Positions 12,357 to 29,856 of a DNA stretch of 29,894 nt are shown here, one piece after another. The translations under genes were made by a program, and so were the position numbers. The DNA comes from a virus, in IMG/VR virus record IMGVR_UViG_3300008116_000485, positions 1-29,894 of that record; one strand, 5' to 3'. The notes beneath the pieces were generated by a model that did not search any database, was not told the origin of the DNA, and saw nothing but the letters and a program-made list of their open reading frames with translations. Positions within the stretch are counted from its first letter, which is position 1. Each line of letters begins with the position of its first letter.

Positions 12357-14312
12357 TTATACTGATGTGGCTTTTATGTCTACGTCTGGGTATTTAAGTT
12401 CAAACACACACGGATCAAGAGATGGATAAACGATTTTATTTACGGTTGCAGCATCAATGTTATATTCTACATCCGAGTACGTTCCATTTCTTGATGTCAA
12501 ATTATTGATCTTCAGATACGCAACAGATTGAACTCCTTCCACTTTGGCGATTTCTAATTCCAATTGACTCAAGTTAATTGGTTGATTGAATCCCCACAAA
12601 TCAATATTAAAGAAATCCTTGATAGTCTGTACACAATTTGCCAACACTTCTTTTTTGTTGAAATTGTTGTAAGTGACAATCTTAAAATCCACACCAATAT
12701 TGATGATATAACCATCAATCAAATTGATACCGTCAGTCATCATACGATATCTACTCAAATATTGACGAAGATTATGCAACAATGCTTGATTTGGCTTTGT
12801 CAAGTTTTTGTTTTCATCATAACTCAACAAATACAAATTAACTGAAAATGGATTCTTCAGATTACCACTAATTTGTCGATTGCTGATCACTTCATTGTTT
12901 TGTGTCAACTGTCCCTCGACAATAGAATTAGCGTTCAAGTTGTTGTCGGATATTACCGTTGCTTTAGCTACCGATCCAAACTTGGCGGGCATAGCGTAAC
13001 TACGAGCAATATAATCATCAGCAGTCACAACACGATTTTGAGCTGCAAAAAACGCAGTGGCGTTTTGTTTAACTTCGTCACTTGATTCGGGTCCGTCACC
13101 ACCAACAGCAGGAACATTGTTTTCTGCTGCCAATGAATTACGTACTACCTGAAACAAACTTTGTTCTGCATTTGACAATACCGAGATGTCATTTTCGTAT
13201 TCAACACTGACGATTTTGTTGATATCTCCAGTTTGACTGTTTGATTCAACTCCACCACCAACCAAATATTTGACCGTAAATTGAGTACCTTGTTTAGGAT
13301 ACACACCAAACGAATCAGAATTAACAATGTTTGACGGGTCAATATTGACATTCAAGTTGTTCAAATTTGACAAACTCACACCAAGAATTTCAGCTGATGG
13401 AATAACAATTTCATCATTCACACCCTGATTTCCCGGTCCAAATTCTAAATACGTCAAATTGTTTTGGTCAATATTTGTAACAAATTTGCGTTGAGTTCTC
13501 AACAACTTAACGATATTTGGAACGGAAGATTGATATTGAATGAATCGATCATCGTTCAAAGATACGTTTTCATATGATGTTAACACAATATCTTGAGCAA
13601 GATATTCAACTTCATACCAAGGTACGTTGTCTTGATCACGTACATCCAAAATTTCAAGAACGTTTGGTTCATCCAAATACAATTTGTAGTATGGAGTACT
13701 TTCGTTAACAATAAAAGTCTTAGTTACAATTTGTCCAGAAATTCCGTTTGCGGTTTTCTTTATCAAAAAGAACTGTGGAATACCATATTCATCTCTGGAA
13801 CTTACCGTTATTTCTCTTGGAGAATTAACAGTATCCATAGAAAAATCAATAACATCAGCTGTAACAAATGCTACTCCAGCACTGTTAATTAACTGCATTC
13901 CAGATTTGATACGTAGAGTATACTTTTCATCAGGAACATATTCACCCACGTCGTTTTTAATTGATGGCACCAATTGATACACATCAAAGTTGGTTAACGA
14001 AGGACGAGATACCTTTGGCTTATATCCCAAGAATTTGGATAATGCTAGTACGTTTTTACGTTCTTCGGTGTATGGAAACAAACTTTCCTTGAACTGTTGA
14101 TCCAAGTAAAATGAAAGTACATCTCCAACATAGGCAGCCATATCAATGAAGATGGTACCGGGAGAAGAGTCTGAAAAATCCTGATAGTTCTTTGGAAAAT
14201 ACGTCTTGGTATACTCAATCAGGTTCTTCTTAAACTGAGAAAAATCTCTGTTCAAATAAGATATGTCCTTATTTGTTAGAGGTTTAAATGTTTTCTGTGT
14301 AGTCGATGCCAT
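12357..14312 (-). CDS. Baseplate wedge protein, T4 gp6 / P2 J-like
   Basis: A 651-residue protein that should build the inner baseplate ring. The N-terminus is diagnostic: SYLNRDFSQFKKNLIEYTKTYFP, then SSPGTIFIDMAAYVGDVLSFYLDQQFKESLFPYTEERKNV (written here in parts), LALSKFLGYKP, which is the conserved opening of gp6-type wedge proteins. Around residues 410-440 the segment AFFAAQNRVVTADDYIARS is the second conserved J/gp6 motif. The C-terminal part (residues 500-640) has the alternating beta/helix pattern of the family. It is directly downstream of the gp25-like gene, the order found in P2 and many myoviruses (W then J). The length matches T4 gp6 (about 660). Start at ATG 14312 with a weak GGAAAATAACTAATT leader. 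Confidence 0.93.
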   Translation of the reverse strand: MASTTQKTFKPLTNKDISYLNRDFSQFKKNLIEYTKTYFPKNYQDFSDSSPGTIFIDMAAYVGDVLSFYLDQQFKESLFPYTEERKNVLALSKFLGYKPKVSRPSLTNFDVYQLVPSIKNDVGEYVPDEKYTLRIKSGMQLINSAGVAFVTADVIDFSMDTVNSPREITVSSRDEYGIPQFFLIKKTANGISGQIVTKTFIVNESTPYYKLYLDEPNVLEILDVRDQDNVPWYEVEYLAQDIVLTSYENVSLNDDRFIQYQSSVPNIVKLLRTQRKFVTNIDQNNLTYLEFGPGNQGVNDEIVIPSAEILGVSLSNLNNLNVNIDPSNIVNSDSFGVYPKQGTQFTVKYLVGGGVESNSQTGDINKIVSVEYENDISVLSNAEQSLFQVVRNSLAAENNVPAVGGDGPESSDEVKQNATAFFAAQNRVVTADDYIARSYAMPAKFGSVAKATVISDNNLNANSIVEGQLTQNNEVISNRQISGNLKNPFSVNLYLLSYDENKNLTKPNQALLHNLRQYLSRYRMMTDGINLIDGYIINIGVDFKIVTYNNFNKKEVLANCVQTIKDFFNIDLWGFNQPINLSQLELEIAKVEGVQSVAYLKINNLTSRNGTYSDVEYNIDAATVNKIVYPSLDPCVFELKYPDVDIKATSV

Positions 14313-24415: not shown

Positions 24416-24736
24416 TCAGTGTTTTGGTTTTACTGTATTATCTAATAACGATTCGATTCGTTTAACCCTACTACACAGTTCGTACTTTTCCTCTTTAAGA
24501 TAAAAGTCATACACATTTTGAATATTGTCACGAAATGCTTCTCTGGCAATAGTAATAACGAAGTCAGAATTTTTGAAATTAAATACTTCAGCCATTGGTA
24601 AGTTTTTTTCAATAGCGAATTCGATTGAGGATATAACACATTCTGTCAAATCGGTTTTATGCGATTTGACATACGATTCCAACTCTTTAAAATCAGAGGG
24701 CAACACAAAAGGTTTATATTTTTGCTTCTTTGCCAT
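24416..24736 (-). CDS. Small phage protein upstream of phoH, unknown function
   Basis: A 106-residue, mostly helical protein. It has a basic start (MAKKQKYKPF), a central amphipathic helix NLPMAEVFNFKNSDFVITIAR (20 residues shown in part), and a charged end ESLLDNTVKPKH. The pattern EKNLPMAEVFNFKNSDFVI resembles small phage helper proteins, but I cannot name the family. It begins a unit with phoH right after a terminator and a TATTTATT element. It may therefore act with PhoH or be expressed at the same time. Confidence 0.7.
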   Translation of the reverse strand: MAKKQKYKPFVLPSDFKELESYVKSHKTDLTECVISSIEFAIEKNLPMAEVFNFKNSDFVITIAREAFRDNIQNVYDFYLKEEKYELCSRVKRIESLLDNTVKPKH

Positions 24737-24744
24737 ATAACATT

Positions 24745-24752
24745 AATAAATA
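24745..24752 (-). promoter_or_regulatory. Candidate phage promoter octamer TATTTATT
   Basis: TATTTATT lies between the terminator at 24778 and ATG 24736, eight bases before the start. Confidence 0.45.
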
Positions 24753-24777
24753 TTTCCACGACTGATGTTAAACCAAT

Positions 24778-24803
24778 AAAAAACGCCATCGAAAGATGGC
24801 GTT
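24778..24803 (-). terminator. Intrinsic terminator after the 73-residue gene
   Basis: Coding-strand stem AACGCCATC / GATGGCGTT, nine pairs around the tetraloop TTTC, followed by TTTT. It lies 31 bases after the stop at 24834. Confidence 0.92.
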
Positions 24804-24833
24804 TGTAAATTGCAGTTATTTGTTTATGTTCTG

Positions 24834-27459: not shown

Positions 27460-27687
27460 TTATCCATCCATTTCAATTGTATCAGATTGAGGCAACACTC
27501 CGATATCCGACAAAGGCAACCCTCCAGCATCCTCTACAACCGCTTTGATTTCACTTTCCAACTCTTTGATACGTTCCTTATATCCAGCTGCTACGTCCTT
27601 GAAATCCTTCTTAGTATGCAACAACTTTTCTGTAAGTTCGTAAACTTTCTTTTGTGCTTCTAGCTTTGACAATTTAATGTTACTCAT
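27460..27687 (-). CDS. Small coiled-coil protein
   Basis: A 75-residue protein with a coiled coil over residues 5-52 (LSKLEAQKKVYELTEKLLHT, then KERIKELESEIKAVVED). It ends in a Gly/Pro/Ser/Leu segment. It is probably a structural or scaffold helper that dimerises. It stands alone between the divergent plus-strand gene and a strong terminator. Its ATG at 27687 is about 13 bases from the octamer shared with the plus-strand gene. I do not recognise the family. Confidence 0.75.
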   Translation of the reverse strand: MSNIKLSKLEAQKKVYELTEKLLHTKKDFKDVAAGYKERIKELESEIKAVVEDAGGLPLSDIGVLPQSDTIEMDG

Positions 27688-27699
27688 AGTTCGTATACA

Positions 27700-27707
27700 T
27701 ATTTATT
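27700..27707 (+). promoter_or_regulatory. Candidate phage promoter octamer between divergent genes
   Basis: TATTTATT lies five bases before the plus-strand ATG 27713, the same arrangement as on the minus strand. Read on the minus strand the same bases are AATAAATA, so the minus gene would need another element. Confidence 0.45.
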
Positions 27708-27712
27708 GTTGC

Positions 27713-27931
27713 ATGAAAGAAGTAACTTTTCACGATATAAATATTAAGGATCACCATATCACAATTTGGGCAAACCAATTTATCATATTGAGACATCCTG
27801 AAAAGTGTGACCTTTACGAAGACGATCATTGCCGTGAATCTATGTTAAACTATTTGGAGAAAGAAGGTTACATAGATCCAAATAAATGCAACTGTTTGGT
27901 CGTGGACAGTTACATTGACTTCGAACCATAA
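27713..27931 (+). CDS. Lone plus-strand small gene, unknown function
   Basis: The only convincing plus-strand gene. ATG 27713 gives 72 residues, MKEVTFHDINIKDHHITIWA, then a Cys/His/Asp-rich middle (HPEKCDLYEDDHCRESML) and an end NCLVVDSYIDFEP. A longer start at 27677 would run through the promoter octamer and the neighbouring start, so it is not used. Three cysteines and several histidines could bind metal. It reads toward the tmRNA terminator and is divergent from the coiled-coil gene, so it may be an early or regulatory gene. No family is recognised. Confidence 0.7.
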   Translation: MKEVTFHDINIKDHHITIWANQFIILRHPEKCDLYEDDHCRESMLNYLEKEGYIDPNKCNCLVVDSYIDFEP

Positions 27932-27932
27932 C

Positions 27933-27956
27933 AAAAACCCCGAGCATAGCCCGGGG
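27933..27956 (-). terminator. Terminator after the tmRNA (possibly bidirectional)
   Basis: On the minus strand CCCCGGGC pairs with GCTCGGGG through one G-U, with a TAT loop, then TTTTTG. It ends the tmRNA transcript 14 bases after its CCA. On the plus strand it also follows the small gene stop at 27931, but has one A-C mismatch and fewer T residues. Confidence 0.9.
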
Positions 27957-27969
27957 TTATAATGTAAAA

Positions 27970-28354
27970 TGGTGGACGTGGCGCGAGTCGAACGCGCGTC
28001 TTCAAACATCGTTATACATCAGACTACACGCTTATCTGTTTTTCAATACAATGGTTGTAAATCTAAAACATCAAACTTTACATCAAGGTTGTTCAGTAAG
28101 ATTTAAACAATAAACCCGAACATTTTATTGTCTAGCCTGATAGTTTACACCTTCCACAATTATCAGACATCATTGTGAAAGATGTGCAGCACTTAGGCTG
28201 CGAGTGCGACTTCCTTACGTGAAGTAAAGTTGTAGCTGATTACCTTGCTCTTCTTAGTAGCAGTTAATTTTTTGATAGATGATTAAAGAGGCCAACTATC
28301 GTCCTCTACGTGCCTAACATACACTAATCTTTGAATCGAGACCAGTACACGCCC
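27970..28354 (-). ncRNA. ssrA: tmRNA (complete)
   Basis: This rescues stalled ribosomes by acting as alanyl-tRNA and then as a short mRNA. The 5' end GGGCGTG pairs with CACGTCC before A-CCA, giving a seven-pair acceptor stem with one G-U. The T arm is GCGCG-TTCGACT-CGCGC and the D-like region CTGGTCTCGATTC matches the tmRNA consensus. Pseudoknots are visible: one with AGAGG/CCTCT and GATAG/CTATC just before the reading frame, one with CTGATA/TATCAG, one with ACAATAAA/TTTATTGT and TGTTC/GAACA; a fourth is possible. The tag frame runs 28261 down to 28193, 22 codons starting A-T-K-K-S and ending E-V-A-L-A-A before TAA. A host protein SmpB would be needed. A TATTTATA element lies 16 bases before the 5' end and a terminator follows. 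Confidence 0.96.
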
Positions 28355-29782: not shown

Positions 29783-29856
29783 TGGAGCGGGTAGCCGGAA
29801 TCGAACCGGCACATCGACCTTGGCAAGGTTGCAGGCTACCACTACATCATACCCGC
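29783..29856 (-). tRNA. tRNA-Gly (anticodon GCC)
   Basis: A 74-base tRNA with the CCA encoded. Acceptor stem GCGGGTA/TACCCGC has seven pairs, the T arm is GCCGG-TTCGATT-CCGGC, and the anticodon loop TTGCCAA centres on GCC. The D stem has a mismatch and a G-U, and the anticodon stem has one A-C mismatch, so it is degenerate but probably usable. GGC/GGT glycine codons match its specificity. Confidence 0.93.

Follow-up and report, generated by a model that had tools for sequence, protein, structure and literature searches.

The window analysed here, the whole of a 29.9-kb viral record, contains a complete one-piece tmRNA gene (ssrA) of 385 nt at 27970–28354 on the minus strand, which is also the strand of all parts of the tmRNA described below. 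ARAGORN places a tmRNA at exactly these coordinates, with the tag ATKKSKVISYNFTSRKEVALAA, and a search with the Rfam covariance model RF00023 gives a full-length match (model positions 1–374) of 132.8 bits (E 4.8e-52), far over the gathering score of 47. The preliminary description of this DNA had read a complete tmRNA with an intact acceptor stem, a T arm and at least three pseudoknots; all of these are present, and the pseudoknots number four.

The tRNA-like domain consists of the acceptor stem, the T arm (27981–27997) and a genome-encoded CCA end (27970–27972). The 5’ half of the acceptor stem, GGGCGUG (28348–28354), holds the G3-U70 alanine signal and, according to the pair counts, pairs with the 3’ half, CACGUCC (27974–27980). 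Pseudoknot PK1 (28274–28307), with stems at 48–52/64–68 and 55–59/77–81 in tmRNA numbering, lies immediately 5’ of the resume codon. The tag reading frame (28193–28261) runs from a GCU resume codon through the 22 residues of ATKKSKVISYNFTSRKEVALAA to a UAA stop, which lies inside helix H5 (28186–28201). Three further pseudoknots follow: PK2 (28135–28185), PK3 (28090–28134) and PK4 (28037–28083). The tRNA-like domain, the tag frame with its stop inside H5, and PK1 with further covariation-supported pseudoknots place the RNA in the RF00023 family.

The structure was compared within a 15-member family alignment containing 14 distinct sequences. A low model score or a loss of pairing in relatives had been named as grounds for doubt, and neither was found: 94.6% of cells pair in the structure with four pseudoknots, versus 36–47% in register-slid controls, and the covariation score is 0.344, versus at most 0.098 out of register. 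Among the 14 distinct sequences, 37 pairs have changed on both sides, and such paired changes occur in every pseudoknot and in most helices. Both stems of PK1 are 100% paired. The 14-bp and 8-bp stems of PK2 are 99.0% and 98.2% paired, with six pairs changed on both sides, while the stems of PK3 are 90.9% and 81.6% paired, with seven. PK4 is the weakest of the four, its first stem being 76% paired, and H5 is 98.6% paired. Four of the five pairs of the T stem are doubly changed. The G3-U70 pair is invariant (14 of 14 distinct sequences), and two other acceptor pairs are doubly changed – the T stem and the acceptor pairs near G3-U70 do change, pairwise.

The 22-residue basic tag ending in ALAA is as first read. 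Across the family, the tag core V-[IV]-[SA]-Y-[ND]-F and the C-terminal AA are conserved, and pN in the core and end is 0.095 against a pS of 0.385, a sign of purifying selection that fits a real tag function. A scan of viral contigs for the 5’ end of the tmRNA found about 50 contigs with 19 distinct tags. These are 19–30 residues long and range in charge from about −5 to +8, with the core and the end constant, and the differences in length among relatives are whole codons. The basal tags of the family are acidic, as in AEDNVISYDFSYDDVAVAA; those in the subclade of the studied phage are basic and longer, the most extended being ATKKSKVISYNFTSKKSSKTFKKSGLALAA. Phage tmRNAs were already known; this family of tags had no earlier description, and a literature search for its tag strings found none. 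The comparison of relatives shows selection on the structure, the alanine-charging signal and the tag peptide.

The tmRNA gene borders a large tRNA cluster. The closest member of the cluster upstream is a tRNA-Gly(GCC) gene (29783–29856, minus strand) identified by ARAGORN and Rfam. Most relatives have the same neighbour, and in one contig (L461) the tmRNA comes straight after an apparent tRNA-Gly end. A 111-kb relative (G018) has 37 tRNAs. These include one with a CUA anticodon (L240, 11347–11422), and TAG is rare as a stop. Amber recoding, which this tRNA suggests, is not supported: reading TAG as a sense codon barely alters ORF coverage in structural genes, with a modest rise elsewhere.

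The gene had been credited with its own promoter and terminator, of which only the terminator withstood analysis. This Rho-independent terminator 3’ of the tmRNA (27936–27958, minus strand; −21.3 kcal/mol for the stretch, z −4.2) is real and mostly not conserved. Among the other relatives whose sequence downstream of the 3’ end was read, a comparable hairpin follows the tmRNA only in L213 and L210, the first of which is identical to the studied sequence over this stretch. A promoter scan gave 7 promoter-like sites versus 5.9 ± 2.5 expected, which is the chance level, and none of them is directly upstream of the tmRNA. Since the tmRNA has no visible promoter and, in most relatives, no terminator, it is likely to be cut from a longer transcript.

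Downstream of the tmRNA is an ORF of 75 residues (27460–27687, minus strand), which is found in 48 of 50 family contigs and has no family match in Pfam, PHROGs or NCBIfam. It is probably a coiled-coil protein. An obligate tie between this ORF and the tmRNA was rejected, since the ORF persists where the tmRNA has been lost. On the plus strand, an ORF of 84 residues (27677–27931) converges on the tmRNA terminator and is ~70% conserved in several relatives. A match to the STnc50 sRNA (24720–24812, plus strand) is below threshold, with 34 bits against a cut-off of 55, and is probably due to chance.

T4-like genes in the record include gp25, a gp6-like baseplate wedge gene, phoH and glycosyltransferases, and the 111-kb relative has gp23, gp20, an S77 prohead protease and a terminase. 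The phage is placed among the T4-like phages (Caudoviricetes) by gp25 and gp6 in the window and by the other genes in this relative. As a clue to the host, the terminase does not decide, being almost equally close to Microcystis phage Mel-JY01 (53%) and to Flavobacterium immuto phages (52%); nor did searches with the tmRNA 3’ end or the tag core lead to a host. The gp6-like gene (12357–14312, minus strand; phrog_219, E 6e-23) served as the marker for synteny and co-divergence. A full tmRNA was found by the RF00023 search in 15 of 42 contigs of gp6 relatives. Among the 17 informative contigs – those with a gp6 at least 54% identical and with the tmRNA stretch covered – 15 have the tmRNA, always 11–14 kb upstream of gp6 and on the same strand. 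In a 303-kb relative (G191), it lies ~15 kb upstream of gp6. The two informative contigs without it (G016 and G023) form one subclade and keep both flanking genes side by side, which indicates that the gene was lost there and therefore that it is dispensable in some hosts. Identities of gp6 and of the tmRNA are correlated (Mantel r 0.87, 0 of 2000 permutations), and the tmRNA is maintained among relatives from 99% down to 47% gp6 identity. The tmRNA is a phage gene, inherited with the phage genome.

This phage RNA is very probably a working tmRNA, because all of its pseudoknots covary, G3-U70 is constant and the tag is under purifying selection. No smpB (PF01668) was found in 16 + 10 related records, among them the 303-kb relative; most of these 26 records are fragments, and an smpB could lie in parts beyond them. 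The RNA is accordingly not assigned to a phage tmRNA-SmpB system, and host SmpB is presumably used. During infection, the tmRNA would be made together with the adjoining tRNA cluster and its 5’ end trimmed by host RNase P. Host alanyl-tRNA synthetase would charge it with alanine, and host SmpB and EF-Tu would deliver it to ribosomes that have stalled on broken mRNAs. Such a ribosome would then switch to the tag frame, add alanine and the 22-residue tag, and be freed at the UAA, while the ALAA end would mark the tagged product for Clp-type proteases. Late in infection, the phage would gain from the freeing of ribosomes and the recycling of amino acids; alternatively, the gain would be a safeguard against defences or toxins that cut mRNA. 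In either case the tmRNA would belong to a set of phage translation genes that includes some 37 tRNAs. We infer such ribosome rescue during infection, with support from the precedent of mycobacteriophage Wildcat, in which the tmRNA is the most highly expressed lytic gene (PMC7474061).

A second reading, possible if unlikely, is that the long tag itself is what matters: as a label specific to the phage, it would alter the fate of rescued proteins, rather than serve plain host-like trans-translation. It would do so by one of two routes, either evading the host adaptor and protease or leading the proteins to a different protease, perhaps a ClpP of the phage. The preliminary description had offered such redirection, or the replacement of host tmRNA during takeover, as possible roles. 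The argument begins with length. The preliminary description held that the tag is longer than the usual 8–15 residues, which holds against 123 sampled bacterial one-piece tags (all 8–15 residues, in a set from which Cyanobacteria and Chlamydiae are absent), though, against this second reading, the tag of Chlamydia trachomatis also has 22 residues (PMC12493166). Of the distinct viral one-piece tags, 8 of 24 have 21–31 residues, and none of the 123 bacterial tags has at least 21, in sets that were drawn differently. Among distinct permuted viral tags, 13 of 58 have 24–31 residues by ARAGORN calls that were not individually checked. Six phage records with a tmRNA have tags of only 10–13 residues, and length is therefore no rule for phages. 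Seven other viral contigs have very long tmRNA tags (27–31 residues), and some of the very long viral tags form related pairs, such as ANNIVDMAPSLDEADAILAKFGWAEEAAVAA and ADNIVDMAPSLDEADAILAKFGWTEEAAMAA.

The tag family itself, with its wide range of length and charge around a constant core and end, also favours this second reading. A search of 85,000 bacterial species with the tag-core pattern gave 40 chance matches with no tmRNA among them by ARAGORN, though a single resume context and a single type of serine codon were fixed in the pattern, so that divergent spellings would be missed. Also in favour, the 303-kb relative, which has the tmRNA, encodes two ClpP-like (S14) proteins (L497, 405–1025, and L495, 15204–15767), but both are below all NCBIfam cut-offs, none was found in the 111-kb relative, and the only other phage in which such proteins were seen is Microcystis phage Mel-JY01, which has no tmRNA. 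Against this reading, the tags still end in AA, like an ordinary Clp signal. By eye, a Ser-His-Asp triad is plausible in the L497 protein. It is unlikely, too, that several phage lineages independently lengthened the tag to 20–31 residues and that here the product is a charge-reversed, core-kept relabelling signal, read differently by host or phage Clp. If true, long tags would be a phage-made class that controls protein fate during infection.

It is much less likely that the RNA acts as a decoy, blocking trans-translation in the host by binding SmpB or alanyl-tRNA synthetase. There is a precedent in phage DS6A, whose RNA has a tRNA-like domain only and is reported to have such an inhibitory effect (PMC4131195, PMC11915505), and the apparent lack of smpB in related phage records would agree with it, as would the huge phage LR756508, which besides its full tmRNA has a 112-nt RNA corresponding to the tRNA-like part only. 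A decoy, however, could do without purifying selection on a tag frame and without four covarying pseudoknots. The 112-nt RNA (LR756508.1, 414804–414915; 58 bits to RF00023) has an acceptor stem with G3-U70 and no tag frame, and resembles the inhibitory RNA of DS6A.

That the gene is a useless passenger, captured once from a host and retained by chance, is highly improbable: its loss in one subclade is what a passenger might show, but covariation, a pN below pS in the peptide and maintenance over gp6 identities from 99% to 47% are not. Phages often use bacterial ssrA genes as attachment sites, yet host contamination of the assembly or a prophage attachment-site remnant of bacterial ssrA can be rejected as having a negligible chance, since the gene is complete, is flanked by phage genes in synteny in ~50 viral contigs, co-diverges with gp6, and has a 3’-end pattern with no exact match in the GTDB species genomes (an 85,000-species collection).

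A working tmRNA of phage inheritance is the preferred reading, and with about 50 contigs and 19 tags, it represents a conserved family of phage tmRNAs, for which the alignments give strong evidence of function. The family lives in jumbo-sized T4-like phages that also have dozens of tRNAs. Its tags form a natural series, from acidic 19-mers to basic 30-mers, that could serve to test how far a tmRNA tag can vary and still work. The gap in length between the sampled viral and bacterial one-piece tags raises a testable question: do phages alter the fate of rescued proteins?

The family shares with bacterial one-piece tmRNAs the G3-U70 acceptor stem, the encoded CCA, the T arm, H2, PK1, a GCU resume codon after UAACU, H5 with the stop, PK2–PK4 and a tag ending in AA. 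It differs from them in being a phage gene that adjoins a tRNA cluster, with a tag of 19–30 residues around a V[IV][SA]Y[ND]F core, versus 8–15 residues in the 123 sampled bacterial tags. The tmRNAs of the mycobacteriophages Bxz1, Catera and Wildcat are likewise complete and phage-borne, and the tag of Bxz1 also has about 25 residues, but the phage group, the host and the tag are different. Bacillus phage G also has a tmRNA within a tRNA cluster, with a short tag of 13 residues (AKLNITNNELQVA) and a score of 67.6 bits. The 22-residue tag of Chlamydia trachomatis (AEPKAECEIISFADLEDLRVAA; PMC12493166) is bacterial; like basal family tags such as AEDNVISYDFSYDDVAVAA, it contains [IV]IS[FY] and ends in AA, a short likeness that may be due to chance.

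The rarity of phage tmRNAs had been overstated: 402 of 18,146 phage genomes (about 2%) have one (PMC9004378), a 2025 tmRNA database holds 79 unique phage sequences, and tmRNAs are known from huge phages. Methylophilales phage Melnitz and the pelagimyophages are also T4-like aquatic phages with a tmRNA, but theirs is two-piece, permuted and under a glutamine riboswitch (PMC9004378). A search of phage records with the DNA of this tmRNA gave no match. For the full tmRNA of huge phage LR756508 (LR756508.1, 92434–92880), the ARAGORN tag, GRRKPLSW, looks wrong, and frame 0 has an open tag of 32–36 residues with ADYESAGFTAEDFAQMDGESLYHGSERKPAAV at its end. Although this tag and the neighbouring genes have no sequence likeness to those of the family, the tmRNA is on the same strand as a gp6 gene of 38% identity and ~12 kb upstream of it, an arrangement like that in the phage studied here.
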